A DNA stretch of 64,000 bases from Plumapathes pennacea (taxonomy: Eukaryota; Cnidaria; Anthozoa; Antipatharia; Myriopathidae): positions 12,666,184-12,730,183 of the forward strand of contig OZ038471.1 in the NCBI GenBank assembly GCA_964036295.1. The letters are read 5' to 3'. Shown in pieces: positions 25,701 through 55,136 of this stretch. Under the pieces are notes generated by a model, which was not told where the DNA came from, did not search any database, and worked only from the letters and a program-made list of their open reading frames with translations. The translations under genes were made by a program, and so were the position numbers. How positions within the stretch are numbered: the stretch's first letter is position 1; each line of letters starts with the position of its first letter.

Positions 25701-28700
25701 AAAACCGGAGAGGACACGCCCCTTGGCGAGGAAACTAACAATGCATTCGCCGCCAGTGATACATCCCTTCTGGTGCAACAAAAAGCGAAACAAGGTCAGT
25801 CTTAGAGCGTGTTCTTTTGGGACTATTCCGTCTGTTTCTATTCCAGAATAAACGGTAATCGTGTTCTTTTGAGAACTATATCTGATTCCGGAATGAACGG
25901 AATAGTGTTCCGTCCATTCTGCTCTCAATAGCAGAATAAACAGAATAGCGGATTATTCGGAATGGGCAGAATAGCCGGAAATCGTGTTCGTTTGGTACTT
26001 TTTGCCTTATTCTCTCACGTCTGCTATTCTGTTCTTTTGGGAACTGGTATTCTGCCATTCCTATTCCGGGATAGGATTATTAAACGGAATAGTCCCAGTA
26101 GAATGCACCCTAAAGATATGAGTATTGTCGTAACCACCCTGCCCTCGTTCTGAGTGACTTCACTTGTTGTGCATGAAGAAGTCAATGTCAGTGTTTTGTG
26201 GCAATTTGTTTTAGTCGAAGGGTCTCTTCGGTTGTTTCTTGCAATATCCACATACATGAAGACTTTAGAGGCAGGTCCCGGCTCAATTTTTCCCCATCTT
26301 GTCAACGTTCGTAATTATTAATAAATTTAACTATGTTTGCGTTTGCGTTTTGTTGATTGTTTTCTTGTTTGTTTGTTTGTTTTTCAGAATCGCCAAAGAA
26401 GGTGAAAAGTTTCAGCGAAGAAAGACAAATCAAATGGGAGATTGAGAAACAACCATCTTCCTATTATTCTGACTTATGTAACAGATGGGTTTCGTTAGCT
26501 GGGGTGAGTTGTGAAAACGTTAGAAAAACAGTAAATGTATTTATTTGTTGACTCTATTTAATTTATAAATCAGAAGTTATCTGAACAGTCTATAGAGCCG
26601 TTTCCGCGTGACTGTCGAAAGTAATCGTGCGATTGCTTTGGTTTTGCGTTTGCTACGCTTTCCGATTGATCCTAACAAGTTTAGCAACATTCTTGGCCAG
26701 TGAAAAGCAAAAGCAAAACCTGGTTGCGATATTCTCACGCAAGAAAGCAAGTGGCGATGGCGTGGTCTCGCACTGGTGATTGGTTAGTAAACCAATCGCA
26801 ATTACTTGGCTTTGGTTTTGGTTTTGTTCGTACTTCTAATGGTCCGACGTGTTTTTTCTCGCCTCATTGATTGGCTCTGTGATTGCTTTGGTTTTGGTTT
26901 TCGACAGTCATCCGAAAAGCGCTCTAATTCGGTAGGTTTATACAGAATAATATAAGTTCTTTACGAGATAAGCCCCCTTATAATCACAAATTGATCTACA
27001 AACGAATAATTGAAACTGCAGATATCTGACATCATTATTACACAACGCTGTCATTTCTGACACTCAAAATCACAAGTTCCAGTAAAGACCTGGGACTATA
27101 AAATGATAATTAAAAAGAAATAGCACAAATCATAAAATGATTATACTATGTCAGTTATAGAATTCTTACAAATTACGATTAAAAAAACTATAGGAAACTA
27201 TTATAGTTCACTTTAATTTTTAGCTGACTAATACTAAATTTTTATTCACCAATCCATACATATCTGCTTAATACACTATTTCTGAACTTTCGAGTGCAAT
27301 CAAATTGATGTATTATGCTATGGATCTGAAAATTTGCATGTCTGCATATTATGCGATGATTTTTCCATTTCTGGCACTCCAAACGCCCGAGGTAATGAAT
27401 TTTTTGTCACATGGTGCACTTTTAGGCCATGTGACCAGATCCTGCAAAGGGGGCTTGTTGAACCCAATTGCCAGTTTTGAATCGAATTGCAAGCTTTGTG
27501 TTTCTTCTATTTGCAGGTCTTTGTCAGCATTCTAATAATGTTTCTTATCAACTGGGGCTATGCACTTGCCAACATTTCTGTTGCACTTATTGTCTATATC
27601 TACATCGGCCAAGCAAATCCAGGATTATCAAAAGGTACGCTTTATGTTATGCTTTTTATTTTTAAACATTCACCGCCAGTTTATACATGAAACATGGAAT
27701 AAACGACATTATCTATTTTATCAGATCAATACCGGTGGATTTCTTCTGTGTAGTAATTGCCATGAAATATCGTTGACATTCCGTGCTTATAATATAACTG
27801 TTGTTAAAACGGATCAATAACCTGTAATATATCGTAGTTCTGACTCAGTTTGGAAAAGTTGGCAAACCCTTGATGGACACCCTACCTCATTACATAAAAC
27901 GAGGTCCTAAAAATTGTGAGGATGAAATTCCCAGTAAACTTTTTTAAAATGTTTGAGGTTTTTGCATTATTTGGGTAATATTTATGCGAAGGAGGCAGCA
28001 AATCAACACCGATAGCAGAAACTGACCGGGATCAGCGGAGGTTCTGGGGATGCAGGTTCAGTAACGCAAGGTTTCCCTAGTAATCCCGCGGGTTGAAATA
28101 ATCAAAATAACGCGCCAGAGACTTTTTCCGGATTCGTCGAGTGACATTGCTGGCCAATCAAATGCGGCCATGTGCACATGCGCACGACGTTATGATGTTC
28201 CAGCACATGCTCAATAATCGCGTTCTACTCATTTAGTGTGTGCGAGTGGACAAATTATGGAAAATACAGCAGCTTATCAATGCTTTCGGACAGACAGCAT
28301 TTCACTTCCATTGTAGAACCCCAGCCTATAGTTTATAAATTATATTTGACAGAAGTGGCGCGCGGATTTTGGCCATATTTTAAAACGGATGGGACCGGAA
28401 ATTGGCCAAGATAAGTTCGCTGCTGTTACGTTTTTGTCATTTTGTTCCTCAAGTGTCTTGTTCTGTAAATCTGTGTTTGGTAGGAATTGCGAGTGACTTC
28501 GTCTTTACCAAGTGGTTGCAGTCTCTGTGGGAAAAACTGACCAGGTTTGTACTAGCTACTCAGTCATTGTATCATTGATATTGAGAGGAATCTGCTCCGT
28601 ATCAACCTCAAATTGACCACACCTCAGATATCAGGGCATCATTATGATTAGTCGAGTGAAAATGGGTACTGGCAAAATTTGCCTCTTCAAGGGTAAATCC

Positions 28701-29431
28701 GGGTCAATATATAACGCGTTCCCGTTTAATATAGCCTCATCTAAACACGCTGGAATTTGGGAGAACACGAGGACGCCGAGTGGTTTCCTTAGCTACTCGA
28801 GTGTTCTCCCAACTTCCCGCGTGTTTAGATGAGGCTATATTACACGGGAACGCGTTGTATATTTCTTTTATAAATAATTAGTCATTCAAATACATCACGT
28901 ATTACGTCAGCGTGTAATATATTCTCATCTTACACGGTATTTACTCGATATTTACAAACAGCTCAGTATAATTGATGTAATGGTACCGTAAAATAGCATC
29001 ATGTTCCAAATAACGTATCAGACAGCTCCAAGCAGCAGTTGTCTGTCCTTTACAGAGGCCCTCTCACCGTAGATGCTTTGCGCGCCCTGTGACTGACGGC
29101 GGCCATTTTCGTGTCATACGAAAATGGCTGATTCTCATATTTTTTCTGTTTTATTGCGAAATAACTCAACACAAACGCTCCTGTTGTAAATATAAACATA
29201 GGCGCGCAAAACATCTACGGTGAGAGGATCTCTTTTACATTACTAATCATGTGTGCGGTTTATAATTTTTCCTTCAGGAAAAGCTCACCAGAGCAGCAAA
29301 TTGTGGTAGTGCCGAAGACTGGTATTCCATACGGCCTTTCCACCTATCAATTGACCGAGGAAAATGCAGACTTTGCTTACCGAGACAAACGCCATCACTC
29401 TTCGGTTGTGACGACTATTGGACCTCAGTAG
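16779..29431 (+). CDS. SLC12A8: SLC12A8-type cation-chloride cotransporter family membrane protein, complete
   Basis: SLC12A8 (CCC9) is a divergent SLC12 member with an APC-type transmembrane fold. Its substrate is debated; mammalian SLC12A8 has been reported, and disputed, as a nicotinamide mononucleotide carrier. Thirteen exons: 16779-16967, 18573-18651, 20627-20694, 21613-21804, 22284-22515, 23162-23363, 24165-24252, 24704-24850, 25260-25794, 26388-26503, 27517-27634, 28484-28544, 29278-29431. All are GT..AG and phases close, giving 726 residues (human about 714). Blocks include [93 protein letters not shown] and the SLC12A8-specific tail [21 protein letters not shown] hydrophilic loop in exon 9 (about residues 460-570) is acidic. 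The start ATG has A at -3 and G at +4. The 3' end is duplicated as a dead copy at 47838-52612. Confidence 0.95.
18108..18320 (-). pseudogene. Non-LTR retrotransposon endonuclease fragment
   Basis: A 69-codon open piece on the minus strand in SLC12A8 intron 1. It reads [14 protein letters not shown], then a spacer, then [10 protein letters not shown], the GDFN(A/S)H motif of apurinic-type endonucleases of CR1/L2/Jockey retroelements. No other domain is attached here, so it is a truncated relic. Confidence 0.75.
18990..19288. mobile_element. TA-flanked MITE family 'GAGC', copy 2, degraded
   Basis: GAGCTGTTTACATGACTGTT at the left and GGACAGTCATCCGAAAAGC at the right match the family ends with several substitutions, and the TA flanks are lost. 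It lies in SLC12A8 intron 2. Confidence 0.6.
19464..19781. mobile_element. TA-flanked MITE family 'GAGC', copy 3
   Basis: GAGCGGTTTTCCGATGACTG and its complement at the right end are flanked by TA. The interior has the family's ACCAAAACCAAAACC tract. It lies in SLC12A8 intron 2, 175 bp after copy 2. Confidence 0.8.
19810..20270. mobile_element. Nested foldback elements in SLC12A8 intron 2
   Basis: Outer arms AATAATACATGGGTGCGCAG..ATATGAAATTT and the near-complement ending GTGTATTATT bracket 461 bp. Within them an independent palindrome (19905-20044; ATTACACGGTGGCGCGAAG and complement) has its own axis at AACGAGCACTTCACGAG. One foldback element seems to have inserted into another of the same class. 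Confidence 0.65.
20285..20450. repeat. Foldback repeat with GAGATTTCCG arms
   Basis: TGATACAGAGATTTCCGTCA at the left is mirrored by GGCGGAAATCTCTATATCA at the right. A small palindrome (ACACATGTAAAAATATCATA and complement) forms the middle near 20360-20393. It lies in SLC12A8 intron 2. Confidence 0.55.
20957..21352. mobile_element. G/C-tract-ended MITE in SLC12A8 intron 3
   Basis: Begins CCTGGGGGAGGGAGGGAGG and ends in a poly-C tract plus CACTCACCCTCCCAG. Internal words such as GTGTACACCCTTTTTATGCC and CTTGAAAAGGGACCCC parallel the insertion at 57089-57492. No target duplication is visible. Confidence 0.5.
21958..22150 (+). mobile_element. tRNA-derived SINE-like element in SLC12A8 intron 4
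   Basis: The 5' part has tRNA character: TGGCAGAGTGTCGGTTAGGG then GCCGGACTCGAAATCCC and GGTTCCAGGTTTAAGTCC, resembling degenerate A and B boxes. A second unit (GCCCCGGGTTCAAATCC at about 22060) looks like another B box. A tRNA-unrelated tail follows. It does not fold as an intact tRNA. Confidence 0.55.
22516..23161. other. SLC12A8 intron 5, nothing distinct
   Basis: A/T-rich sequence between exons 5 and 6. I see no coding block, clear inverted ends or structured repeat. Confidence 0.5.
23385..23570. mobile_element. TTAA-family MITE, degraded, in SLC12A8 intron 6
   Basis: TTAACCCTTTCGCTTCCAAA at the left matches the family end, and internal AAGTTCTCCTTACTGTTTGA and GGTGAGAAACTGAAGGAG match copy 1 at 3581-3784. 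The right terminal repeat is lost. Confidence 0.55.
23603..23997. mobile_element. MITE with ACTTGCATCG sub-repeats in SLC12A8 intron 6
   Basis: AAAGCCTTAGCCAAACGAGA at the left and CTCGTTTGTCCAGGGCTTAA at the right form imperfect inverted ends. Between them the words GTCGATGCAAGTT and AACTTGCATCGACTTGC recur in both orientations. No coding capacity. Confidence 0.6.
24890..25010 (+). repeat. Possible degenerate tRNA-derived SINE head
   Basis: GTCGGTTAGTGTGCGACCTC and GGGTTTTGGTACCGC loosely resemble tRNA A and B boxes at about the right spacing in SLC12A8 intron 8. The resemblance is weak and no SINE tail is evident. Confidence 0.25.
25802..26114. mobile_element. MITE with GGGACTATTCCG inverted ends in SLC12A8 intron 9
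   Basis: TTAGAGCGTGTTCTTTTGGG then ACTATTCCG at the left is mirrored by CGGAATAGTCCCAGTAGAAT then GCACCCTAA at the right. Internal copies of GTGTTCTTTTGAGAAC and GAATAGCGG occur. It starts only 8 bp after the exon 9 donor, so the donor sits nearly at the element boundary. Confidence 0.65.
26595..26924. mobile_element. TA-flanked MITE family 'GAGC', copy 4 (SLC12A8 intron 10)
   Basis: GAGCCGTTTCCGCGTGACTG at the left and GACAGTCATCCGAAAAGC then GCTC at the right, with TA on both sides. Its duplicate is at 48014-48327, so this insertion predates the segmental duplication. Confidence 0.8.
28708..28862. repeat. Palindromic element in SLC12A8 intron 12
   Basis: ATATAACGCGTTCCCGT then AATATAGCCTCATCTAAACA at the left is mirrored to CGGGAACGCGTTGTATAT at the right, with the axis near GGTTTCCTTAGC. 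Its duplicate is at 51887-52041. Confidence 0.75.
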
Positions 29432-30211
29432 AGCCGTGAACGTCCCACATCCAAAAAATATGGTTATTTATTTGGCTGAAAGTCTAAATTATAGTGAACC
29501 GTCTCATTTTTATTTATTCGTTTAGTAGGTTACAATTGAAAAAATCAACAGAATGAAGAATATATAAATGAACCGCGTTTTATTTTGAATGAAAATGAAG
29601 ATCAAAGTTTGCGTTTTAAATTGTAAATATTGTTTTCGGGAGCTTATAACGGGACTTTGCTTTAATCCATTCTATTTACTGCCCAGGGCAGTGATTCACG
29701 TTGAACGTGTTCCAGTGATGTCAAAGAAGATATTATTTCATAAATATATACAGAATTTAAATTTCTGTGCTGTCAAATGTCCGTCTGCGAGTATCTATTT
29801 ATTTGTCCGTCTATTAAGACGGTTTTTCGAGGACGATTTAATCGACTAGACAGGTAACTCGCCCATATAGCCCCGTCTTTAATTCACACAATACATTGAA
29901 TATCAAAACATTTCGTTATACATCCAAGAACATATCCTTATACCTTCATGCAATTCTAGTATTACGCCGAGACTGCATGTACTCTGATTTTGACATTAGG
30001 CCAAAAATGGCCTAATCTCAAGAATCTCAAACACTTCAAAGTTTCAGAAAAGCTTTCTGGGACTATAACGAGACTTTCTGCAATACATTTTTATGATCAT
30101 TTTTATGATCTTTAAATTGAAAACGGTGAAAGTTCATCCCTTGGGAGCTGCGCGGGAGCGCCACGCTTTCTTACACCTTTTCTGCCTTTCGTACCGTCTT
30201 TACTTCATATA
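29432..30211. other. SLC12A8 3' UTR and downstream region
   Basis: Follows the SLC12A8 stop. Nearly identical sequence recurs at 52613-54855 apart from a Helitron insertion there. A small open frame at 29589-29849 is preserved in both copies, but only because the DNA is duplicated. I see no independent gene. Confidence 0.6.
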
Positions 30212-30770
30212 CAGTAGAACCCTGCTATTCGAACTCTCAAGGGAATCGAGAAATAGTTCGAGATAGCGGGGTTCTACCGAGGTGGAGTTTCTATCAAGTT
30301 CAATTTCCAGGGAAACGAATTCTGTTCGAGATAGCGGGGTTCTACCGAGGTGGAGTTTCTATCAAGTTCAATTTCCAGGGAAACGAATTCTGTTCGAGAT
30401 AGCGGGGTTCTACCGAGGTGGAGTTTCTATCAAGTTCAATTTCCAGGGAAACGAATTCTGTTCGAGATAGCGGGGTTCTACCGAGGTGGAGTTTCTATCA
30501 AGTTCAATTTCCAGGGAAACGAATTCTGTTCGAGATAGCGGGGTTCTACCGAGGTGGAGTTTCTATCAAGTTCAATTTCCAGGGAAACGAATTCTGTTCG
30601 AGATAGCGGGGTTCTACCGAGGTGGAGTTTCTATCAAGTTCAATTTCCAGGGAAACGAATTCTGTTCGAGATAGCGGGGTTCTACCGAGGTGGAGTTTCT
30701 ATCAAGTTCAATTTCCAGGGAAACGAATTCTGTTCGAGATAGCGGGGACTTGAGATGCGGAGTTCTACTG
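30212..30770. mobile_element. Tigger-like MITE with expanded 68-bp tandem repeat
   Basis: Ends CAGTAGAACCCTGCTAT and GATGCGGAGTTCTACTG, with TA on both sides, are like pogo/Tigger terminal repeats. Inside, a 68-bp unit (GTTCGAGATAGCGGGGTTCT..AGGGAAACGAATTCT) is repeated seven times head-to-tail with almost no divergence, about 30258-30750. The paralogous element at 54856-55007 has a single unit: 559 bp versus 152 bp, a difference of six units. The repeated frame of 62 codons is an artefact of the repeat. Confidence 0.85.
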
Positions 30771-30899
30771 TATACCCAGTTGAACATTGTGTAAAGTCCT
30801 TCTGAAGACACTTGTGCCGTAGGTAATCAAATTTAGAGGTCTTTTTACTACTTGAAGCAGAAAGCTAACGGAAAGTTGCTCAACCTTTGTGAATTCAAC

Positions 30900-31240
30900 A
30901 TGGCGTCCAAAGAATCCGCCAGTACAAGATCTAGTTCTAACTTGGAATCCTATACAAGTGAGCAAATACAAGTCAGAGCTATTCAACACTGAATTAACGA
31001 AATATCTTTAATCCGTTGCATTTCAAGAAACCTTGAGTCAAACGCTGAAGAGCGTCATCGACGAAGCTGTCAAAGTGGCAACGAGGCCTCTCAAAGAAAA
31101 GATCAACTATCTTAAGAGCTAGCTCTTCCTGAAACGCCGACGCTATAACGTTCGCATAACTTGAATTGAGGAAGAAGAGTGACAAGATTGCTGCTGAAAG
31201 GTAATTTGCTTTCTTTGACAAGGAATTGGGAGTAAGCTCG
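30900..31240 (+). pseudogene. Possible retroelement ORF1-like relic, copy A
   Basis: From ATG at 30900 the frame reads MASKESASTRSSSNLESYT then SEQIQ, where four extra bases relative to copy B (55137) shift it. In copy B the frame goes on as ELFNTELTKYL, a stop, then FQETLSQTLKSVIDEAVKV and PLKEKINYLKSQLF, an amphipathic coiled-coil-like stretch. It could be an ORF1 or N-terminal remnant of a retroelement, or an unrelated dead exon. I do not recognise it. Confidence 0.35.
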
Positions 31241-31295
31241 TTTAAATGTGTACGTGCATTATTACAGATTAAGAATAATAAAATCACTATATTAA

Positions 31296-31498
31296 CCCTT
31301 TCACTCCCAAGAGTGATCAACTTCAATTTTCTCTTTTCAGTCTCCCACCAGAGATATATCATACAGTATGGAGAATTTGGCTTTTGATACCTTGCTCAAA
31401 TGACAGCTGATTAAAACACAAATTTTCTTTCCATCACTTATACATTTCCTCATTTTATGATTGGGAGAATTTGTATTTTGAGCTTGGGAGGGAAAGGG
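31296..31498. mobile_element. TTAA-flanked MITE, copy 3A
   Basis: CCCTTTCACTCCCAAGAGTG at the left and GCTTGGGAGGGAAAGGG at the right are directly flanked by TTAA on both sides. Duplicate at 55576-55765. Confidence 0.8.
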
Positions 31499-31689
31499 TT
31501 AAGTTAAATTGTGAGATAACACTCGTTAATCTAAATATCACCAAATAATAACAATAATATTGATAATTACAAATTAACTAAATCTAAGCTAAAACAATAT
31601 TAAGTAGCCTAAGCCTAGAAGGAAGAACAATATTAAGTAGCCTAAGTAAATACACAAACTCTATTTAAACCCAGTAAAAACAATGATGA

Positions 31690-33565
31690 AACGTATGCAG
31701 CAGGCTTGTTTGAGTAAATATCAAAGTCATGTGGTACAGAGGTGGCAAGAACATGCAATATTGGTTGTGAGAGAAAGATTTTGTACTGTTGATTTGAAAA
31801 TTGCAGAAGAAGTTATATTTCTTGTGTCATTAGGCAGGTTGTTCCACAGCCTAACTGCTAAGTTGGAAAAGGAATTGTGCAAAAACCTACATTATAGATA
31901 CATTTATGTAACAATACTAATGCCTGAATGTAACGCCTATGCCGTAAGCTATCAAGGTCTACAAGATTAAGTAAGCTGTCATATGACTGAGATTTAGCTA
32001 CATTAAGAAAAGTCCGGATTGCATATTGGTTGGTAATTTCGAGTTTCTGAGAGAGGCCATGTGTCAGTCCCACTAATACTGGAGAGCAGTATTCCAAATG
32101 TGGCAAGATGAAAGCCTTGTAGATCTTAATCATAACATCCATAGGGATAAATTTACGAAGCCGCCTGAGGGAGGCAACTTTGGTATTAACCTTGTTACAA
32201 CTAAGTTTTAGGTGAGACTTAAAGCTTAGGGTGTTGTCTATAGTGAGACCCAGAAGTTTGAATTTGTCAACAACCTCTAATGGCTGGCCATCAGCTTCTG
32301 AATAAAACTGATATGGTACCAACTCCTTTCTCAGGGACAGAACCTTCGTCTTTGTGTCGTTAATTGTTAAGTAATATTATAGTTAAACCAGGCAACAAGC
32401 AAATTAAGATCATTCTGGACAATAACCTGTAACGTATCAGCATTAACATGGGATGAATACTCAGTTGTATCATCTGCATACAGTCTGAGAGATACATTGT
32501 TCACAAAAAAGTTCAGGTCGTTAATAAACAAGTTAAACAGTTTGTGGACCCAGGATTGAGCCCTGAGGTACCCCATGTTTAATTATTGCAAAGTCAGAGA
32601 AGGAGTTACTCACTCTTACTCGTTGCTTTCTCTGAGTTAAGTATGAACGTATAAGGGCAGTAGCATTGTCTATAAAACCATAGGCCTTGAGCTTACTAAT
32701 TAGTAGACTATGGCAAACAGAGTCAAAGGCTCTGGAGAGATCAACAGCTACAGCAACGACTTGAATGTTCACCATTGTCTAGGGAGATCCGGAAGTCTTC
32801 AGTCATCTTAAGCAGTGCTGTCATGCAAGAGTGGCCTTTGAGGAAACCAGATAGATTGTCAGATAGTATTTGATTGGCGAATTCAAACAGCTGATTGTAT
32901 TGAATCCTTTCAAAAATCTTGGAGATCGATGTTAGGATGGAAACTGGGCGAAAGTTGGTTTTGTCTGTTTCACTTTCCTTAAACACTGGGCTGACGTTGC
33001 TCTCGTTCCACTTGCTAGGCCATACACATGCATTAATGCAGTGGTTTATAAGTTTGGTCAACGGTGAAGAGATGTAAGGACCTGCGATACGGAGAATCCT
33101 TGGCGAGATCAAGTCAGGGTCCGTAGCCTTGTTAGGCTTTAGTCCGTTCAGCAATTCCATAACTTCCGGTGCCTCCACTGTATGAAAAGAGAATTTAATA
33201 TCCTTGAATCTTTGATGTATTTCCTGGACACTCGGATGAAAAGAAAATGCCCCCTCGTGTAGATTAGGAATATGGTCAGCCACACAGTTCACAAAATAAT
33301 TGTTGAAGGTGTTAGCAACTTTAATAGGATCTGTTATAAGATGCTCTGACGACTTACATGCACTCTTAGTTGGTAAAAGTGGTTTGAACTTCGTCCAGAA
33401 CTCACCAGGATGTTTGCAATCAGTAGCTGCTTGGATACAGTAATACTTCAGTGACCTGCGCTTTAATGATGTTACAAGGTTTCTGTGAAGTCTAAACTGT
33501 TCCCAGTTGTGGTCAGACTTGTTCTTGGGAAACTTCCTGAGAAGTCTATTACGTCTTATATGATA
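31690..33565 (-). pseudogene. CR1/Jockey-type non-LTR reverse transcriptase, broken, copy A
   Basis: Minus-strand ORF2 remnant split by frameshifts. In order: a linker (NHCINACVWPSKWNESNVSP), RT palm and finger motifs (FRPVSILTSISKIFERIQYN, AVDLSRAFDSVCHSLLISKL, HGVPQGSILGP, LRLYADDTTEY) and a C-terminal region (FKLLGLTIDNTLSFKSHLKL, FILPHLEYCSPV). The YADD catalytic motif is intact, but the frame breaks near 32760 and 32560, and relative to copy B about 100 bp near 31890 are missing. No endonuclease is attached. The family could be CR1, L2 or a related clade; phylogeny would be needed to choose. Confidence 0.85.
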
Positions 33566-34630
33566 GCATGCGAGTTAAAATCTATCAACATGAAATCGAC
33601 TGAGCACACTGTGTTGGGCCACCTAAAGCTGATGTTCCACGCTCGATGATTTTCAGACTCCAGAGCTTTGGAACGAAGATCCTGGTAATGAAGAACAGGA
33701 GGAAAATTAAAAGAGAGAATTTACACGTAAATGAAGATTTAACAAAACCGAACCAGCCGGTGGAACCTCTAGTGCCGGCATGCAAGTTCGCAAAGAATTC
33801 CGGAAAGTGGGCCTTGCATACAGTCTGGACGAAGCCATTTTTCTCAAACGGCAGGATAACGGGAGTATAATCCGAATAAGACGCACCGTCTCGTGACGTC
33901 AGTGCCGCTTTGCCAGACTGTGGCCTTATGTCTCCAGACACCTAGCTCTGTATGACTCTTAATTGCTACAATCATGGTCAAAATTGTTGGGACGATCCCC
34001 CCCCCCCCCCCCCCCCTTTCAATGTTGGGTAGCGGAGCATGGTTACGACTTATAACTGTACCACGGGCCAACATTGGATGGAGGGGAGGGGGAGGGACCT
34101 GAAAACAAGAAATATGAGACCCCCATAGATTGTACGGATTTACATTGTGCTTCTGATGTGTGCCGTATGGGGAGCGTCCCATGATTGTAGTTGTTCTATT
34201 TTTGATGTATACTTTGCACCTAGTTTAATTAGTTTAGTTTATTGTGTTCCGTCTTGTGTTCTTTCAAGCGCCCTTGACCCGAGCTGTATTATCTTTGTTG
34301 TTTGTAACTCCTCGCAGGGGTGCAGCCAGTCATATTTTACAAATCATAACTTAAGTACGGGGAAACACAAAGAAAGACAGATAGACTACCCTAACTTATA
34401 CAGAAACACCAAGGCCAAGTACACAGGCCAACGCCAGCCTCGTTAACTCCAAACCACCGACGTTCTGCACAGCAGATGGTGTTGAAAAATGCGGATTTGA
34501 TATCAGTCTGCCATTAAGCGACATTCCACGGCACCTTATACAAAGTATAAAATATCAAGTTTCTCTGGAGAGAAACCAGTTTATGCAGAACACCGTACAT
34601 CGAGTTAGTGTCGTGGATAAGACAAACAAA
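33566..34630. promoter_or_regulatory. Upstream region and 5' UTR of receptor gene A
   Basis: Runs from the end of the retroelement to the receptor start codon. It holds a poly-C tract (33999-34017), a G-rich patch near 34080-34100 and sequence collinear with 58385-59403. The promoter should lie here, but no specific element can be named. An upstream ATG at 34583 is not preserved in copy B. Confidence 0.45.
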
Positions 34631-37600
34631 ATGTCGACACCAACCAGCACTGGCCGGGCTTCTACCGGTCCGTTTCTATCTTGTGTCACCATTTTGTTGT
34701 TATGCGCCGGTTTTCTTCGAGTTGAAGTCAAGATGAAGGAACACGAAACAGAGATAGACGACCTAAAGGCACAGTTGTCTTCACAGAGCTCTCTACAAAA
34801 GTCTATTGTGACTGGTAAGTAAAACACGACACTTTCATTTTGCTTGATTAGTAAACTGCCCAGACATCTAATGCGACGTATTAGCCATATTACATAGGAA
34901 ATTGACTGGGCGTTTGTTTGGGACAAAAGGAAAGTGGCCGCAATTTTCTGGGGTGGACGTAAAAGCGGGGTTCCACTGTACATGGACAAAAGTACAATAC
35001 TAAAGCTATCGGCCTGATGGGAATTTCTTCACTCCTTGTGCTGAGCGAACTTAATCGACATGCTCAGAAGGAATTTAGTTCAGAAACTTCCGCTTTGACA
35101 TTTTTTCTCACTTTTGAAGCAGAGCTAAGGTATTGACGAGAATGGAATTTGTGCTCAAAGCAACACTATGTTGTGTGGCCGCAACACCCAAACATCTATT
35201 TAGCCTGTGCTGGATACCGTAGTGGTAAACATGTTGCAGTTCATAAAGTTCCCTTCACCACCCATTTGATGCTTTTCCATGCGGGATCACTTAGTCTAGT
35301 CCTTCAGCAATTTAAATGTTTTCATTTCAAAACGATGCCTCCCATTTGCGATATTTGCACTGATCGAGAAAGCGAAGCGCTGTGCTCAAACAGATTCATT
35401 ATTTTAGCAGTGTTTAAAAATTCCGTCGATCGTGTTTTCGTGCGGAACAAGGTGAGATAAAAACGCATCGAAATCGAACTGAAAAAGCGTATCCAAGGTC
35501 CCTTGAATGTGCCACTGGCCGCATTTTATAATTTTGTATTTATGAGGCATTCCTCAAGTTGTCACAAGGTATAATAAGTCGATATGTTTTTAGTTGTCTT
35601 TCAGTTTTGTACGAGATTGAGCCGGATCAGTTTCGTTCTGTTAGGTAATTAAACCTTCGACAATGTTTCAATGTGTTCCAACGCATTGAACACTGTCGTG
35701 TGGCCGGCAACACCCCCAATCTATTTAGCCGTGCCTGTACTGAGCCCATTGGACGCTTTTACATGTCGCATGCATCGACGAGGTTTCAGTAATTTTCAAG
35801 GGAAATATGCAAGCCGGAAACGCAACGGTAAACTTGCCAAAACCTGATCTTCGACAATTTATTGAGACAATTATCAAATAACATTCCAGACCTATGACAC
35901 AAGAAAAACGGAACAGAGTTTTCCGAAGTTGTTCCCTCTCATATTCATTTTATTACATATGAACGCAGTGCCTTTATATTCCTCAGATGACAATTTTTGA
36001 TGGCAAAAAGGAAAATTCCATTGCCTGAACAGAGCAGCCAAAATATGTATGTCTCGATGGAAATAAAACGATCATCAGAAACGGAAACAGTACAGGATCA
36101 GTTAAAAGAGTCCCCCCCCCGTCCTTATTGGTTCTATTCGTTTCTGTTTCATTTGCTTTCCGGAATATCGTATTTTCTCACAGCGGGAAGGCGAATTAAA
36201 AAAAAAAACTCACCTTCGATTTCATTTCCGCCAAAAACGGATTATAACGACACGGAAAGGTCGCGATCCTTTGAGGAGATCATTTTGTTTATTTGTGACT
36301 TGTACTGAAGCATATCCGGTCTTTCTCAGTCTTAGTTTGTATATTTTCTCTGAACAAACTGTATCTGCAGTCATTCAACATGTGCCCAGATATCTAATGC
36401 GACGTATTAGCCATACTAGAAATACGATAATCGCAGATATCCCCTCGCTCTGCCATTGATTGGACTTTTACTTTGGTACTGCTCAACAAGAGCAGCCTTT
36501 GTTCTACCGAAATGTTGACTCAATCTTTTCTTCGAAGTCAAGTGCTACACGCAAAGGAAGGAGTAAAAGAATGGTGTGTTTTGCGGTACTTTTTGCATTG
36601 AAAAAAGACTGAGCCGGTCGATTGTGTGACGTCGTATGTATTTCCCACGGTCGGCACGTCAAATTAATTTATACAGTCTGCCAAGCACGTTCTCTGAACA
36701 AACTGTATCTGCAGTCATTCAACATGTCCACCAAAAAATCAAGATCTATTTAAGAGGACTTGACAGATCACTCATTTATACATGAGTAACTCTATATTGG
36801 AAAACACCAGGCAAGTGTCACTAGAAAGTTTCGGGAATTTTCACTTTTACTTTTTTTTCACGTTTGAAGCAGAGCTAAGGTATTGACAGGATGAAATTTA
36901 TGCTCAAAGCAAGGCTATGTTGTGTGGCCGCAAACCAAACATCTATTTAGCCTTTACTGGACTAGCCTGTACTAACAGTGGTAAACATGCTGCGGTTTAA
37001 AAAGTTCCCTTCATTGTTTTCATTTCAAAACGATGCTTCCCATTTGCAATGTTTGTACTGATAGAGAAACGGAAACAGTACAGAATCAGTTAAAAAGGTC
37101 CCCTCTTTCTGATTCTATTCGTTTCTGTTTCATTTGCTTTGCGGAATATCGTATCATTCGTGGACTCTCACGGCGGGAAGGCGAAGTAAAAACTTTAACT
37201 CACCTTCGATTTCATTTGCACCAAAAACGGATTATAATTAAACGACACGGAAAGGTCGCGATCCTTTGACGAGATCATCCTGTTCATTTGTGACTTGTAC
37301 TGAAGCATATATTCGGTCTTTCTTAGTCTTAGTTTGTATATTTTCTCTGAACAAAGAGTATCTGCAGTCATTCAACATGTCCACTAAAAATAAAGACCTG
37401 AATAAGAGGACTTGACAGGTCACTCATTCATACATGCGAGTAACTCTATATTGGAAACACCAGGCAAGTGTCACTAGAAATGTTTCGGGTAAAACCACAA
37501 AGCTGAGTTGACAACTGCCAAAGAAATCACCACTGTCGTCTTCGACAGTTTTGATATTTGAAGAGCTTGACTCAGCGCAAGACTCTGCACTTGCGAATAC

Positions 37601-40399
37601 TTAGCTCGATTTAGTAACTCGATTTCATACAGTGCTTCTCTATTGTATTTAAGTTAAAGTATTTCTATTTGAATTACATTTCGACAAAACCTGATGGCGG
37701 CCCGGTTGGACGAACTTGAACGGTAAATTGCTCATTCACATGGTCGCAATGTCTCGGTATTTTAAATCTCTACGGATTGATTGCAACCCAAGAAGAAGGG
37801 TTAACTGTCAGTAAATTCAGTGTCAATCTTGCTCAAAATTTCTTATGTACATGTACGTTGATCTTAAACTTCCTTTCCTTGTGTTTCATAGCGATATTTG
37901 ACACTGAAGACCCTAAAGAAGAAACCAATAAGGACACTACAAATGTGCGAATTCGTCGTGACGTCACAGCTCCCCGGTCCAACAGCACACCTTCCGCCAT
38001 AAAAGAACAACTCGTTAAGAAGATTGATCGCCTGGTCACTGAAGCAAGCCTCAAGATATGCGCTGACAAGGGAGCCGTCTGTTTACCAGGTCCCTCTGGT
38101 CCTCCCGGTGAGCCTGGCTCCCGAGGTCAGAAAGGATCACGTGGTCGAAGAGGATACAAAGGCAGACAAGGACCCAAAGGAACTCAAGGCATCATGGGAC
38201 CACCTGGAAGAAACGGAAAGCAGGGCATCATGGGATCTGTTGGAGCGCGTGGCGAGAAAGGCGAGAGAGGCGAAGGAGGTCCGCAAGGTATGCCGGGAGT
38301 GAAGGGAGATCCAGGGGAGTCAATCAGCACTCCCAGTGTTGTTATCAGCCCAACATCGCTGACCGTGAATGAGAGCGAGGCTGCCTCGATGCAGTGTTCA
38401 GCTGGTGGTAATCCTAAGCCTGTGATAGTGTGGAGTAAAGTCAGTGATTCACTGCCTGTATTGCGGTCAGCGGTGCTTCGTGGTAAGTTGGAGGTTCAGA
38501 AGTCACAGATGAATGACTCCGGAGTATACCAGTGTAAGGCAACAAACATTTTAGGAGTGGCACAGCAACAAGTCAGGCTTCGAGTTAATGGTTGGTAATC
38601 TTTTTATGTTTATCGACTGCATTACCTATATTTACGCTACACCATTCTTTTATCGAAGCGCACTTCCCTTCGTTTAGGTGAGCTTAATCCACACAAAGAC
38701 TGGTATTGATGATTAACAGTTTAATCGCATTCTTCTTAGTCATTCCGGTGAAGAATTTCTTTCATTTCACACGAGGTGATGACTATCAAAAAAGATTTGC
38801 CCTTTCAGCAAATACCTGAACAAAACACTGAATAAAAAGAAACATTGATTATAAGCACTCTGCTCAGATACTTGTACTTGTTTTCTAGTTAGCTATTCAG
38901 TGTTGTAATTCTACCTTTGCTCTTTCAGGTCGCCCTCGTATCTCTCTTTATCCGGGTCCCTTACACGTCAAAGAAGGAACCAACATTGTCCTTCCAGTCT
39001 GTCACACCACTGGATATCCAAACCCGACGGTTACCTGGAAACGAACATCTCAACCAATCCCGAGTCGTCGAGTGAGTTTTACTGGAAATAAACTGAGAAT
39101 CAACTCAGTCCAAAAAACCGACACAGACACTTATACTTGTGAAGCTTCCAATCTCCTGGGCTCATCCTCTGCATCAACCTTCCTTGTTGTTGTAGGTTTT
39201 CCTACGTTTACTCTCAAGCCACCAGAAAATGCTACTCATGTTAGGGGAGAAACATTGACTTTAAATTGTAGTGCTGTAGGAGATCTACAGCCAGTGATGA
39301 GCTGGTGGAAAGATGGCGGACAACTGCCGCGAGATAGAACCACGATGACCAATGGGCTGCTGACAATAAAAAATTTGCAAAGTCACGATGCGGGGGAGTA
39401 TGTGTGCACTGCAACGAGCGCGACGGTCTCTGATGTGCAGGCCAGAACTCGTGTCAGCATTGTAGGTAGGTCAATAATAAGACATAGTTAATTGTTGTGT
39501 GCAGCTTTTTAATTTGCTTTAATTTAAAACACCATTTCCAAGTTGCTCGTTACTCTCAGGCTCAGTGCAAAGCTTGTCTTCATATGTACTAAAATATCCT
39601 TTATTTTTAACATTTTCTTTGTAGCAAAAACCGTTTTGACATATGTCTTTGTGTTTGAAAACACACATACACAAAAAGGAAGCTATTATGAAAAAAACGG
39701 GACAAAGTTAAATATGTTCTTGGATTTATTTCATGGTGGTATAACAAATAAATTCTGTCTGTAAGCATGCCAGCACTAATGGCAACAATTTACTCTGAAC
39801 AATATTACTTCTCCAGAGTTGTTTGACTCGCGCTTCTCCTGTCCTGTCACTAGTCTAAGCTTATTTTGTCTTGTAAGTAGTTACACCATCATGTAAAATA
39901 TCTTTGTCTGAAATTTGCCAAATATTAACGCAAATCAGTTTTGAAAGCGAGGCGAAAAACACCTCGTATTTATATAAAAATTTCCTGGGATTTATAAATT
40001 ATAAATTTAAGGAAATGCACTTTATCGTCGGAAGTTTTACTTATTAAATTCAGTCTGACACTTTTTTTTTTGTATCTTAATCCTTCCACAGACATACCTG
40101 TACGCCTAACACACGGGTCCTATGGTCGGGTGGAAGTTTTGGCTAACGGCGCGTGGGGAACGGTGTGTGATGATGCTTTTGACACTAACGCCGCCAATGT
40201 GGTGTGCAGACAGCTCGGCTACTCCGGAGCAGCAAGTTATCATTGTTGTGCGCATTTCGGACAAGGCAGCGGAGATATATTGATGGATAGTATAAAATGT
40301 ACTGGATCGGAATCTTCCATACATGACTGTGCTCATATTGGATATGGTGTACATAATTGTGCTCATTGGGAAGATTCAGGTGTGAGGTGTTCGACTTAA
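34631..40399 (+). CDS. Type II membrane collagen-Ig3-SRCR scavenger-receptor-like protein, copy A, complete
   Basis: Four exons: 34631-34814, 37892-38590, 38929-39465, 40092-40399. All introns are phase 1, and the protein is 575 residues. Domains: short N-terminus; one hydrophobic anchor at about 14-31 (FLSCVTILLLCAGFL) with no separate signal peptide, hence probably type II; charged coiled coil at about 33-60; dibasic RIRR at 81-84, a furin-type site; CADKGAVC; 26 uninterrupted Gly-X-Y triplets at 128-205; Ig domains with Cys pairs 230/276, 319/365 and 408/454; one SRCR domain at 475-575. The SRCR domain has the WGTVCDD and VVCRQLGYSG motifs and lacks the first and fourth group B cysteines, so it is group A-like with an extra Cys-Cys. 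Anchor, coil, collagen and SRCR match class A scavenger receptors such as MARCO; anchor, furin site and collagen match colmedins. A role as a cell-surface or shed pattern-recognition or adhesion protein is inference. The ATG at 34631 is chosen because it is conserved in copy B. Confidence 0.88.
35040..37160 (+). repeat. Reiterated segments within intron 1 of receptor gene A
   Basis: Blocks recur in direct order. TTTGAAGCAGAGCTAAGGTA..GGCCGCAA occurs at about 35115 and 36866. TTTCATTTCAAAACGATGC is followed by CCCATTTGC at 35323 and 37018. GGAAACAGTACAG..TCTATTCGTTTCTGTTTCAT occurs at about 36080 and 37064. The intron seems to have grown by at least two rounds of internal duplication. Short open frames in these blocks share CTDRE but no recognisable domain. 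Confidence 0.65.
36384..36689 (-). mobile_element. Helitron 3'-end fragment in a patch insertion
   Basis: Present in copy A only. A 36-bp segment (TCTCTGAACAAACTGTATCT..AACATGT) occurs on both sides (about 36347-36383 and 36690-36727). Between them lie 32 bp matching 34859-34890, then a reversed Helitron 3' end starting CTAGAAATACGATAATCGCA at 36416 and running about 270 bp in line with 53274-53545. The Helitron 5' end is missing. Confidence 0.75.
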
Positions 40400-40716: not shown

Positions 40717-40722
40717 AATAAA
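40717..40722 (+). terminator. Candidate poly(A) signal of receptor gene A
   Basis: AATAAA lies 318 bp after the SRCR exon stop codon and is the first clear canonical signal in the 3' flank. Confidence 0.35.
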
Positions 40723-43028: not shown

Positions 43029-44381
43029 TCCCCGAACGAAGTGAGGGAAATATTTACGACGCTAATGCAGCATAGTCGGCTCATTTGAAGACTCCAAGCG
43101 CGTCGCCATCTCGAAATCTAATGTTCGTGTGTTTGTTTGTGTGTGCGATGCGACCTTTTTAGGCCAGGTGCCTAAGGCAATGTCCAAATAAGGCAATGAC
43201 GTAATTATTATCGACTATAGCCACCGCCATGTTTTTAAGAAAGATTTGAACGAAGCAACAATTGTACGTAACTGCGTTCACGAAAATGAATTTGAAAGCT
43301 ACAAAACTTGAAACAGAACGGTCTCGCGAAGCTCGTCTTCAAAAGAGAAGCGAACAGGCACTTCAAGAGCAAAAGCGGACCGAAGAGAAGACTCCGCAAA
43401 GACAACAGCGCATGAATGCCGACCAAAAGCGACATGAACAGAAGCGAGTAACACAGACAACTCCGCATAGGGAACAGCGCTTGAAAGGAAATCGGGAGCT
43501 TCAGACGCCGTTTTGTGTTAAACTCAGATACTTATTTAGAAAGGACAAGCAACAAAGGTTAGTCAGTGGAAACCGAACAATCACCGTGACAAATATATTG
43601 TATCCCGTATAGCTTTTAACTCGATCACTTCAAGAATGTATTAAAATCTGTATGCTGATCATTTTCCCTCGAAGTATTGTTTTACTACGCTTCTGTCGCC
43701 AGTTTCGGCTACCGTATTCGCTCAGAGCAATCGGAACTTGGAGTCTTGAATGATTTAGTCAGATCAGTGTCTTATTTTTCTGTAATCTGACACGTGGTGA
43801 TGGCAGCGAGAATCGTTTACAAGCCCTTAGAAGTATTACTGGGTCTGAAGCCCGTGTATAATTTGAAGTAAACTGTTCAAGTTTTGCTTTGATTCTGGGA
43901 GAAATCTTGCTGTTTTGAGTGAGTTCACATACAAAACAATTCGAGCCTATTAAATATGCATGTCTGAATCTGGTGCATGCAGTCCAGAGTAAAAACAAAT
44001 CGCACAGGAAGCCTATTTAATTGTACTGCCTATGAATTCAAAATTGGAAAATCAGTGTTCCTTTTTTCCCGTACTACGACGGCCGACCAACTTCAAACTT
44101 TGAGTATTAAATTTTGAGAACGTGCTTGGCAGACTGTATGAATTAATTTGACGTGCCGACCGTGGGAAATACGTACTTCGTCACGCAATCGATTCTTTTT
44201 TCAACGCAAAAGTATAACACACACCATTCTTTTTCTCCTTCCTTTGCGTGTAGCACTTGAGTTCGAAGAAAAGATTGAGTTAACATTTCGGTAAAACAAA
44301 GGCTACTCTTGTTGGGAGTTACCAAAATAAAAGTCCCATCAATGGCAGAGTGAGGGGTATCTGCGATTATCGTATTTCTAG
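43029..44381 (+). mobile_element. Non-autonomous Helitron (spacer copy)
   Basis: Starts TCCCCGAACGAAGTGAGG at 43029 and ends TATCGTATTTCTAG at 44381, followed by T. The preceding base is T rather than the expected A. It is the same subfamily as 53274-54737: truncated charged-repeat ORF followed by a shared non-Rep segment. Length 1353 bp. Confidence 0.85.
43286..43612 (+). pseudogene. Truncated Helitron ORF with foreign C-terminus
   Basis: From ATG in the GTTCACGAAAATG context, the frame gives the charged 23-residue repeat region ([20 protein letters not shown]). It then switches abruptly to TPFCVKLRYLFRKDKQQRLV and stops. The join, GELQ/TPFC, is the same in the copy at 54020-54484, so both derive from one rearranged ancestor. 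It lacks the Cys-rich and Rep parts. Confidence 0.6.
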
Positions 44382-47553: not shown

Positions 47554-48013
47554 TCATTCCCGAAAAGGTTGTCCAGTTGAAATATATATTTAGGCAATTT
47601 TATCTATCACGTGACCACTGAAATAACCGTATAACTATAAAGAAATACATAATACATTAAGTCAGCATGTTTATATAATTTTATGGTATATATATATATA
47701 TATATATACCAATAAAGAGAAATAAAGTCGCGAATTGGTTCTGGGTACGTGGTGTCTTCCTGCAGACGACAGTGAGAAGGCTGAGAAGTAGTTCCAATAT
47801 AGTGCCGTCTAAACGAAAACGTGAGTGATATTTGTGAAGAAATACAAATCAAATGGGAGATTGAGAAACAACCATCTTCCTATTATTCTGACTTATGTAA
47901 CAGATGAGTTTCGTTAGCTGGGGTAAGTTGTGAAAACGTTAGAAAAACAGTAAATGTATTTATTTGTTGACTCTATTCAATATATAAATCAAAAGTTATC
48001 TGAACAGTCTATA

Positions 48014-48327
48014 GTGCCGTTTTTTGCGTGACTGTCGAAAGTAAACGTGCGATTGCTTTGGTTTTGCGTTTGCTACGCTTTCCGATTGGTCCTAACAAGT
48101 TTAGCAACTTCTTGGCCAATCAAGAGCGATATAATCACGCAAGAAAGCAAGTGACGATGGCGTGTTCTCGCACTGCTGATTGGAAAGTAAAACCAATCGC
48201 AATTATTTGGTTTGGTTTTGGTTTTGGTTTTGTACTTCTAATTGGTCCGACGTGTTTTTGCTCGCCTCATTGATTGGCTCTACGATTGCTTTGGTTTTGG
48301 TTTTCGACGGTCATCCAAAAAGCGCTC
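48014..48327. mobile_element. TA-flanked MITE family 'GAGC', copy 5
   Basis: Duplicate of 26595-26924 within the pseudogene's intron 10. It has a slightly degraded left end (GTGCCGTTTTTTGCGTGACT) and internal small deletions. Confidence 0.8.
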
Positions 48328-48973
48328 TAATTCGATACTAGGTTTACAGAATTATAGAAATTCTTTACGAGATAAGTCCCCTTATAATCACAAATCAATC
48401 TACACACGAATAATTGAAACTGCAGATACCTGATATCATCGTTTCACAACGCTGCTATTTTTGACACTCGAAATTACAAATTTCAATAAAAACTGGGACT
48501 CTAAAATGACAATTAAAAAATAGCACAATAGCACAAATCATAAAGTGATTACACTACGTTAATTATAGAATTCTTAAAAAATTACGATAAAAAACTAAAA
48601 CTATAGGAAACTATCATAATTCACTTTAACCTTTTAACTGACTAGTACTAATTTTTTTTTCCACCAATCCATACATATCTGATTAATACAATATTTCTGA
48701 ACTTTCGAGTACTACCAAATTGATGTATTCATGCTATGGATCTGAAAATTTGCATGTTTGCATATCATTCGATGCTCTTTCCATTTCTAGCACTTAAAAT
48801 GCCTGAGGTAAGGGTTTTTCGTCACGTGGTGCATTTTAGGCCACGTGACCAGATTTTGCAAAGGGCCCATCAGGGCTTGTTGAACCCAACTGCCAGCTTT
48901 GAATCAAATTGCAAGCTTTGTATGTGTTTCATCTATTTGCAGGTCTTTGTCAGCATTCTAATCATGTTTCTTA

Positions 48974-50674
48974 CTAGAAATACGATAATCGCAGCTTTCT
49001 TCTCGTTCAGTAGTGGGTTTTCGGAAAGCGGGATTCTTGTTTATTTTCCGTTCAGAGATTATTTAATTTTTTTTTTTGCAAACCACGGCTGTGTAGCAAC
49101 GTCACCAGTCGGCCACTAAAAAAAATCTTTGTCACACGGCAGTCTGATTTAGTTCAGACAACGTGTACAGTCTGCAATTTTCGTAGACACTAGCTGAACT
49201 TCAAAATTCGCTGAGAAAACATTTACACGCAACTACAGAATAGTCGATCTTGGACACCGAAGATTTTATGAATTTCAAGAAAAGCCGCGATTTCTCCAGC
49301 CAATGCTTTATCCTAACCACATACGTGTATGTTTGTTTTTTTGTGTGTGTGCCAAATTTAGAACCATCAAAGCGAGTCGCTTGTTTACACGCTTTCGAAG
49401 TCTCGGAATTGTGTGAATTTTGGCAGGGATTCAATTTTGAACACAACAACTTTTCAAACTGCGTTTGACGATTTTAAAATCTTTGACAGAAAAAAAAATC
49501 AAGTCACTAAATAATACAAGGTCCGATTTTATTGAGCGAGCAAACCCGGTCACTAAATAATTCAAAGTCCGATTGTGTTGAGCGAGTATCTTACGGGGGT
49601 TCCGCTTGTAGACATATTGTTTAATTTGGAAAGCAGTGGCCGGATATTTTCTACTTTAATAGCCTTCAAAAAGCAAAAGCATTTTAACCCGGTTACATTT
49701 TATCCTTGAATACACTGTGCCAACAAACGCGGCGACAAAACTTCACAGCATGTGTCAGACTGTCAATGAAATTATGCAAACATGTCAGGAATCGGATGAC
49801 ACAATTTTGTACGAAGGCACTCTGAAATAGCTTTGAAAACCAGCGAAAAGATCACAGTATAATCCTACTTGGCCTTCAGGACAGTTCCCGGGGCATCAAA
49901 CGACAAAATATACGGCATTTGTTGAAATACCAATGATAACACGACCGTCGTTTAACAAAAGTGTATTTAACGTTAATTGATGTAAAATTTCAAAACTCAC
50001 CGGTTCCTGAAAGCCATAGCTTTAGCTCTTTTCCAGCAAAGGAAACAAAACCCAAAACACTATTGTTTACGTCTTCAATGATTTCAAAATACCCTGTATA
50101 GAGCAGTCCTCATACAGTACGAAAATTCCACTTTTGTGTTGTCATCTTGTCAAACTTGGATTCTGAAAACTGCATTCCTGTTATTGCGAAAGGTGAAATT
50201 TTCCACAGTGATTGTTCGATTTCCACCGACTGTATTTTGCTATTCCTTTCTGAAGAAGTGTCTGCGTTTTAACACAATACTGGCGTCTGGGATTGTGTTC
50301 AGGTCGACCAGTTGGGCCTTAAAGAATCCGTTTTAAGTCTAGTAAAGCTTGCCTCCCATGCACTGGCAAAATATCCGGGCAATTTACAGCCGTCCATCGA
50401 ACTGCTTGGCCTTGTATCTGCATCTTGCTGTACAAAATCACTTCAGTTCGTACTCTACCGCATGTCACCAAGAAAAGGGCGGTTTACAGTTAAGCTGCCG
50501 ATGTAACCTCGCCTGCTGTGGTCGCTCGACGCATAGGGCCTTGGGACGAAGTCGTATGCCACACACAAACACACAAACATTAGATTTCGAGATGACGACA
50601 CGCTTGGAGTCCCCGATAAGGCGATAATACTACTGCATTAGCGTCGTGAGTATTGCCCTCACTTCGTTCGGGGA
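48974..50674 (-). mobile_element. Helitron inserted in SLC12A8 pseudogene exon 11
   Basis: Reverse orientation: 3' CTAG at 48974 and 5' TCCCCGAACGAAGTGAGG ending at 50674, 1701 bp. The flanking bases rejoin TTTCTTA|TCAACTGG exactly as in the uninterrupted exon at 27517-27634, so the ends are exact and no target bases were duplicated. It carries an exon-like cargo (49990-50320, minus strand) and no Rep-helicase coding. Confidence 0.95.
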
Positions 50675-51886
50675 TCAACTGGGGCTATGCACCTGCCAAC
50701 ATTTCTGTTGCACTTATTGTCTATATCTACATCGGCCAAGCAAATCCAGGATTATCAAAAGGTACGCTTTATGTTATGCTTTATGTGAAATCATTTACAC
50801 GGAGTATGCGACATCAAGGAATTTATGTTATAAAATGATTTTCTCTGTATGGTAAATTCCCATGAAACTTCCACAAAGTTACAGTTGATAACGGCCACAT
50901 ATCGGTGACATTCCGTGCTTGTAATGTAACTGTTGTTAAAATGGATTGATTACCTGTTATAATATATCGTATTTCTGATTCAGTTTCGAAAAGTTGGCAA
51001 ACACTTGATCGACACTCTGTATCATTACTTAAAACGAGGTTCTAAAAATTGTTGGGATGAAATTCCCAGTACACTTTTAAAAACACTCGTAAGGTTTTTG
51101 CATTATTTGGGTAATATTTATACGAAGGAGGCAGCAAATCAACACCGATATCAGAAACTGACCGGGATCAGCGGAGGTTTGGGGATGCAGGTTCAGTAAC
51201 GCAATGTTTCCCTAGTAATCTCGCGGGTTGATTTGGGTAGCAACCATAGTCATAGTTACTCCCGCCGTTTACCCAGCGAAGGAGGCATCAAAATAACGCG
51301 CCAGACACTCAATTTGGCGTATTGGGCAATTTGCGTTTGTCCGGATTCGTCAAGTGACATCGCTGGCCAATCAAATGCGGCCATATGCAAATACGCATGA
51401 CGTCATGATGCTTTCGCACATGCTCAATAATCGCGTTCTACCGATTTAGTGTGTGCGAGTGGACAAAGTATGGAAAATACAACAACTTGTCAATGCTTGC
51501 GGACAAGCAGTATTTCACTTCCATTATGCAACCCCTATATTTTATAAATTACATTTTAAAAAGGATGGGACTGGAAATAGGCCAAGATAAGTTCGCTGCT
51601 GTTACGTTTTTGTCATCTTGTTCCTCTAAGTGTCTTGTGCTGTAAATCTGTGTTGGGTAGGAATTGCGAGTGACTTTGTCTTTACCAAATGGTTGCAGTC
51701 TCTGTGGGAAAAACTGATCAGGTTTGTACTAGCTACTCAGTCATTGTATCATTGATATTGAGAGGAATCTGCTCCGTATCAACCTCAAATTGACCACACC
51801 TCAGATATCAGGACATCATTATTATGATTAGTCGAGTGAAAATGGGTACTGGCAAAATTTGCCTTTAAAGGGTAAATCCGGGTCAA

Positions 51887-52041
51887 TATATAACGCGTTC
51901 CCGTGTAATATAGCCTCATCTAAACACGGTGGAAGTTGGGAGAACACGAGGACGCCGAGTGGTTTTCTTAGCTACTCGGGTGTTCTCACAACTTCCCGCG
52001 TGTTTAGATGAGGCTATATTACACGGGAACGCGTTGTATAT
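51887..52041. repeat. Palindromic element, duplicate copy
   Basis: Counterpart of 28708-28862 in the pseudogene's intron 12, with a few substitutions in the arms. Confidence 0.75.
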
Positions 52042-54737: not shown

Positions 54738-54855
54738 TGATCATTTTTATGATCTTTAAATTGAAAACGGTGAAAGTTCATCCCTTGGGAGCTGCGCGGG
54801 AGCGCCACGCTTTCTTACACCTTTTCTGCCTTCTGTACCGTCTTTACTTCATATA

Positions 54856-55007: not shown

Positions 55008-55136
55008 TATACCCAGTTGAACATTGTGTAAAGTCCTTCTGAAGACACTTGTGCCGTAGGTAATCAAATTTAGAGGTCTTTTTACTACTTGAAGCAGAAA
55101 GCTAACGGAAAGTTGCTCAACCTTTGTGAATTCAAC

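Follow-up and report, generated by a model that had tools for sequence, protein, structure and literature searches.

The CniFLs (cnidarian ficolin-like proteins), reportedly first described in the Aiptasia genome paper, are the closest described system to a gene found in a 64,000-nucleotide stretch of the Plumapathes pennacea genome (the window; positions 12666184-12730183 of contig C10, in a 290-Mb assembly of 24 contigs). This gene encodes a predicted anchor, a collagen block and three immunoglobulin (Ig) domains, together termed the shaft, followed by a C-terminal SRCR domain, termed the head. CniFLs were searched for by their collagen, Ig and fibrinogen domains; most have one transmembrane domain (TMD) and three Ig domains, some have a WAP domain, most species have several copies, and non-symbiotic species also carry them (PMC5094078). 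The window gene follows the prevailing CniFL plan (PMC5094078) in its collagen, its three Ig domains and its single C-terminal recognition domain, with a putative anchor in the position of the TMD; however, the head of the window gene is an SRCR domain, and the fibrinogen domain that defines CniFLs is absent from it. The shaft shares common descent with fibrinogen-headed shafts of its own genome, while the CniFLs of other species were matched by description.

Other described proteins share parts of this plan. The class A scavenger receptors (MARCO, SR-A1 and SCARA5) likewise combine an anchor, collagen and a C-terminal SRCR domain with six type A cysteines, but the window gene differs in having three Ig domains between collagen and SRCR, a furin-like site, a single-exon SRCR domain with a CC pair, no MARCO RGR motif and a shaft of other kinship. 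A preliminary description of the locus had given it a MARCO-like plan; the shaft is not specifically MARCO-like, its plan being that of the CniFLs and common to genes of this genome that bear other heads. The MACIT collagens (XIII, XXIII and XXV) have a similar type II-like layout, with a short coil and a furin-type site between transmembrane segment and collagen (PMC4678570), whereas the window gene has one short collagen block (26 triplets) in place of three interrupted ones, contains Ig and SRCR domains, and ends in SRCR rather than the conserved MACIT C-terminus. The SR-A-like proteins of Acropora digitifera also combine collagen with SRCR; however, they have CUB and two collagen domains, and the available text mentions no Ig domain (PMC5119243). 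The same survey of scavenger receptors, made in six anthozoans, reports only two collagen-SRCR proteins, both CUB-bearing and with Ig domains unmentioned (PMC5119243). In a survey of 29 metazoans, collagen is named as one of the domains most often combined with SRCR (PMC10855680), and the tables of that study may therefore already list an Ig-collagen-SRCR protein without a name. A literature search, with subscription papers mostly outside its scope and some sources available in part, turned up no publication in which this shaft bears an SRCR, C-type lectin or F5/8C head; the name CniFL occurs in six of the papers it covered, one of them about a plant. What appears to be new is the use of SRCR as a head on a CniFL-type shaft, and the swap-head family is of more interest than the single gene.

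The window gene and its SRCR head

Four exons on the forward strand (34631-34814, 37892-38590, 38929-39465 and 40092-40399) join into one open frame of 575 residues plus a stop, with GT-AG at every exon border; all three introns are in phase 1, as the preliminary description had stated. Its count of 26 perfect Gly-X-Y triplets also holds, these forming a single uninterrupted block at residues 128-205 (38089-38322; Pfam collagen 1.7e-13), and Pfam recovers the three Ig domains (Ig_3, 9.8e-47) and the C-terminal SRCR domain (3e-28, residues 483-574) that it had proposed. Exon 1, recognised by its open frame and GT donor, encodes a short N-tail, the putative hydrophobic anchor (about 34673-34717) and the start of the juxtamembrane region, and ends in phase 1. 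Exon 2 encodes a linker, a furin-like motif R-I-R-R (residues 81-84, 37948-37959) between anchor and collagen, a second helical segment, a C-x6-C pair, the collagen block and Ig1; coiled-coil and helical segments were judged by eye only. Ig2 and Ig3, found by frame and Pfam, occupy exon 3, which has a phase 1 donor, and exon 4 holds the SRCR head and the stop. A candidate polyadenylation signal, AATAAA (40717-40722), was read directly and begins 318 bases past the stop.

The hydrophobic stretch is short, at approximately 15 residues (about residues 15-29). Both sides of this core are conserved, with the flank FLRVE(V/L)KMKE common to three paralogous exons read, which favours an anchor; the uncleaved state given in the preliminary description is putative. 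In addition, a tandem copy repeats exons 1-3 at 93-99% amino acid identity, so the architecture of the window gene is more than chance.

The SRCR domain has the six group A cysteines, in keeping with its earlier classification as group A-like; however, it also has an additional CC pair (525/526) and is encoded by a single exon, whereas type A SRCR domains are described as multi-exon (PMC4491621). Asp501 and Glu567 align with the calcium-site pair of CD163. Structure prediction had been proposed as a check, and AlphaFold2 modelled the SRCR fold from a 32-row alignment with a mean pLDDT of 97.7, the single sequence having given a useless 37.6. The contig search behind this alignment confirmed 43 of 56 candidate stretches as SRCR loci (1 in viral_contigs and 42 in genome_contigs), 31 of which entered the alignment. 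Nearly all of these loci are titled bacterial metagenome-assembled genomes (MAGs), and a few come from sponge-symbiont bins and are possibly host DNA. Searches of the viral contigs with the full protein and with the SRCR domain found no relative. One Deltaproteobacterial MAG (L002:8971-9270) contains an SRCR domain 57-59% identical to that of the window, with the unusual CC pair in common. Three bacterial MAG contigs (L013, L030 and L035) have Gly-X-Y runs followed by SRCR in one reading frame, an order that is presumably independent or transferred.

By SRCR score and fold, kinship with MARCO gained no support: many SRCR proteins lie close together in scores and fold Z, with no preference for MARCO, SR-A1 or SCARA5. 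The MARCO RGR motif (PMC4491621) is absent, with YGRVEVLA where MARCO has RGRAEVYY. In the SRCR tree, the window gene and its tandem copy (the window pair) group with SRCR exons from C1 and with solo SRCR exons on C10 (92/86, below the tool's star).

C10 also contains eleven solo copies of the SRCR exon, near 8.55, 11.45, 11.54 and 14.55-14.97 Mb (L070-L075 and others). They have 76-82% identity with the window SRCR, and the 20 kb upstream of each hold no strong shaft match. L070 and the five other fetched loci, which match it at 96-98% identity across 2.7-3.3 kb, have no shaft exon within 1.5 kb. Each of the eleven has a stop-bearing, exon-1-like remnant within 9 kb. These loci resemble a fragment of an ancient tandem array that has since been dispersed, containing the SRCR end of one gene and the start of the next.

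The shaft family and its heads

When exon 2 (linker, furin-like site, collagen and Ig1) was searched against its own genome, 155 matches were obtained; because 150 of 1195 candidates were scored, the shaft counts are lower bounds. At least 73 strong matches were identified, including the window pair (E of 1.3e-17 or better), although some are partial exons and several are possibly broken genes; weaker rows, mostly single Ig domains and second pieces, were dropped. Each shaft was paired, in hand-picked rows, with the nearest same-strand domain that follows it within 20 kb, provided that no further shaft intervenes. By position, the most common head was Fibrinogen_C (15 of 73 shafts), followed by a COLFI/fibrinogen-like tail in the Ig2-Ig3 exon (13), a fibrinogen-like domain of the L087 type (12), F5/8C (8), C-type lectin (6) and SRCR (2, the window gene and its tandem copy), while 17 shafts had no head paired. 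The 13 tails were assigned by open-frame length and one read example (L085), and two of them, 2.0 and 4.5 kb from the shaft, are less sure. The sole C-type lectin assignment on C9 rests on a 40% match, and a search for the F5/8C family (150 of 1240 candidates scored) was not used for pairing. As 15 of the 73 shafts are, by position, followed by fibrinogen, a fibrinogen-defined CniFL survey would miss most shaft relatives here.

Heads were scanned with Pfam on the DNA for L060, L082 and L085-L090, the remaining assignments being by coordinates only. The scans identified fibrinogen in L060 (1.1e-78), Fibrinogen_C in L085 (9.8e-6, with COLFI at 6.1e-5, under its cut-off), Lectin_C in L086 (1.1e-4, barely above cut-off) and F5/8C in L088 and L090 (4.6e-15 and 7.8e-17). 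Among the 17 shafts without positional pairing, L089 on C11 has an ALK_LTK_GRD head (5.2e-7) and L082 on C1 an EGF_3 head (4.7e-12). Pfam gave nothing for the L087 head, and its match to Intelectin-1 in the PDB was no better than chance (E 0.55). Domains of this type, approximately 215 residues long and fibrinogen/intelectin-like, have at least 83 matches in the genome, mainly on C10 and C6, many of them not beside a listed shaft.

Exon 2 of the window gene has 60-70% identity with those shafts of its own genome that precede a fibrinogen domain; no fibrinogen domain (PF00147) was among the matches listed within 20 kb downstream of the window gene on the same strand. Of 46 exon-1 matches, 31 precede a shaft exon by no more than 9 kb, 11 are near solo SRCR exons and 4 are elsewhere; the 31 belong to shafts headed by fibrinogen (14), F5/8C (6), C-type lectin (4), SRCR (2) and EGF-SRCR (1), or without a paired head (4). 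A phase 1 donor follows Ig3 in the window gene and in five other genes read by hand (L060, L082, L086, L087 and L090). The paralogue on C1 has EGF exons at C1:10249267, 10255661, 10281110 and 10281780, and its SRCR exon, at 10282979, is interrupted by a single in-frame stop; the gene may be a shaft-EGFn-SRCR gene across 39 kb, by a link inferred over 16 kb of unread sequence.

The shaft tree contains 35 exons picked from the 73 to sample each head, and it is unrooted, so it does not set the order in which heads originated. The window pair groups with the C1:10.247 gene at 100/96, and together they stand with fibrinogen-headed rows at 89/92, below the tool's star. The nine head labels, one of them 'unknown', require nine changes on the tree, one above the minimum, compared to an average of 20.6 when the labels are shuffled. 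Given the starred branches, the C-type lectin, F5/8C and fibrinogen labels must each change at least twice, the second fibrinogen change being owed to a shaft of unknown head.

The furin-like site recurs across the family: in 29 of 34 readable shafts, including the window pair, RX[KR]R precedes the first long Gly-X-Y run by 28-59 residues, and the looser RXXR is present in 33 of 34 (a thirty-fifth shaft, L086, was truncated in the fetched sequence and not counted). In transmembrane collagens, a site in such a position is cleaved by furin (PMC4678570), and the recurrence of the RIRR-type site suggests that the head may be shed. The shaft is under purifying selection, with dN/dS of 0.38 compared to the C1 paralogue (0.33 for exon 3) and 0.24-0.26 compared to three fibrinogen-headed genes.

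On balance, one membrane-anchored, furin-releasable collagen-Ig shaft probably serves as the chassis for at least seven recognition heads: fibrinogen, SRCR (alone or with EGF repeats), C-type lectin, F5/8C discoidin, a fibrinogen/intelectin-like domain unmatched in Pfam, a COLFI/fibrinogen-like tail and an ALK/LTK-type glycine-rich domain. With head changes along the shaft tree, largely at phase 1 junctions, these would form a germline swap-head repertoire of dozens of genes in which the CniFLs are one branch. Animals without antibodies must broaden recognition with fixed genes, and one scaffold could give rise to many detectors with tips that bind different microbes or sugars. If so, the head (specificity) and the shaft (anchoring, trimerisation and shedding) evolve separately inside one paralogous family, a separation resembling that of vertebrate collectins and ficolins, and the question would shift from whether the gene is an ancient MARCO to whether the head sets the ligand while the shaft sets release and clearance.

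Proposed function and competing explanations

It is fairly likely that the window gene encodes a trimeric pattern-recognition receptor, in which a CniFL-kind anchor-collagen-three-Ig shaft, anchored and/or released by furin, carries an SRCR head in the place of fibrinogen. Beyond the established exon structure, domains, SRCR fold model, head-sharing shaft, conserved cleavage motif and purifying selection on the shaft, this reading involves an inferred topology, trimerisation, cleavage, ligand and immune role. The N-terminal segment would sit in the membrane in type II orientation, three chains would assemble through the short helical segments and the collagen, and the Ig domains would keep three SRCR heads off the membrane. 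The heads would bind poly-anionic or microbial surfaces with avidity, and Asp501/Glu567 would probably make this binding dependent on calcium. Cleavage by a furin-type protease after Arg84 would free the trimer as a soluble opsonin-like molecule, and the product may act as both a surface receptor and a secreted recognition protein. In Exaiptasia, TMD- and Ig-containing ficolins rise under Vibrio infection, with ligand binding still to be shown there (PMC7654579). CniFL expression is cited as higher in aposymbiotic anemones (PMC4840205), which, together with the presence of CniFLs in non-symbiotic species, does not favour a symbiont-specific role.

Several points weigh against a receptor of this kind. 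The gene is known here from genomic sequence alone, and the infection evidence concerns fibrinogen-headed relatives in another species only. The hydrophobic stretch is short and might instead be a signal peptide that is cleaved off, and the N-tail (14 residues) contains, by eye, no tyrosine and thus no obvious signalling motif. Given the three bacterial frames with Gly-X-Y followed by SRCR, this domain order is not in itself proof of an immune role. The two tandem copies give a dN/dS of 0.82 from 14 changes, too few to judge selection and no evidence of constraint. Compared to six solo C10 copies, the SRCR domain has a dN/dS of 1.1-1.5 (dS 0.08-0.11), which suggests that selection has been relaxed or altered in the window gene, in the solo copies or in both; the six lack one canonical cysteine and so may be decaying, and constraint on the window's SRCR head cannot be inferred from this comparison.

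There are several potential alternatives to the anchored and furin-releasable receptor. The product could be a secreted or matrix protein that, through a cleaved signal peptide or constitutive furin cleavage, acts as a soluble multimeric opsonin or matrix adhesion protein and is never a receptor. The hydrophobic core of only about 15 residues, the widespread furin-like site (29 of 34 readable shafts) and the tyrosine-free N-tail are consistent with this; however, the conservation of both flanks of the core in the three paralogous exons and the TMD reported for most CniFLs (PMC5094078) argue against it, and the secreted form is less likely than the receptor. A true class A scavenger receptor orthologue, from the MARCO/SR-A1/SCARA5 lineage with gained Ig domains, would have the same anchor, collagen and SRCR order, but it is highly improbable here, as the shaft is common to fibrinogen-, lectin- and F5/8C-headed paralogues, the SRCR similarity to class A is not preferential, and the SRCR domain is single-exon and without the RGR motif. 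It is also unlikely that the locus is a pseudogene pair or an assembly artefact, with haplotypes placed in series or an SRCR exon belonging to another unit. The tandem copies differ by only 0.3-4% across aligned stretches, and eleven SRCR exons are scattered on C10 with no strong shaft match nearby, as such an artefact might produce; however, both copies are complete, with splice sites and SRCR intact, they are distinguished by insertions and lie 24 kb apart within one chromosome-scale contig, and the C1 paralogue likewise has EGF exons and then an SRCR exon.

Tandem duplication and other features of the window

The second copy of the gene (59404-63926, forward strand) consists of exon 1 at 59404-59587, exon 2 at 62353-63051 and exon 3 at 63390-63926, each matching its counterpart, with the SRCR exon just beyond the window end (C10:12731125; window-equivalent 64942-65252) and a full frame of 576 residues. 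It belongs to a tandem segmental duplication in which the left unit (26417-39539) has its partner at 47836-64000, the pieces being 83-99% identical and the units offset by 21-25 kb. The copies differ by 4 synonymous and 10 non-synonymous changes in exons 1-3, and by 1 and 2, respectively, plus one extra codon in the SRCR exon; with so few coding differences, a recent duplication is indicated, a haplotype artefact being the less probable explanation. No fibrinogen exon was found between the copies by a simple motif scan (not a profile search) of 99 open frames or among the matches listed genome-wide, and no EGF exon was found by pattern in intron 3 of either copy. Copy 2 retains the furin-like site, and its residue 150 is changed from Tyr to Cys inside a Gly-X-Y triplet, which could provide an interchain disulfide or be a flaw. 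The left unit also contains approximately 7 identical copies of a 68-bp tandem repeat (30256-30747), an array not listed for the right unit.

Reverse-transcriptase-like frames on the reverse strand lie just upstream of copy 1 (32744-33574; RVT_1 2.5e-06, below cut-off) and of copy 2 (57523-58140; a likeness noted without a Pfam scan). Probable exons of an amino-acid permease-like transporter are found at 22221-25802 on the forward strand, with an AA_permease match of 2.5e-09 in the frame at 23086, a weak match at 22221 and none at 25260. A forward frame at 12889-13398 matches PTPLA (8.1e-09). In addition, a forward frame of 324 residues at 4794-5765 matches DUF6570 (1.7e-19), and its kin stretches at 43029-43504 and 54158-54743 suggest a mobile element.
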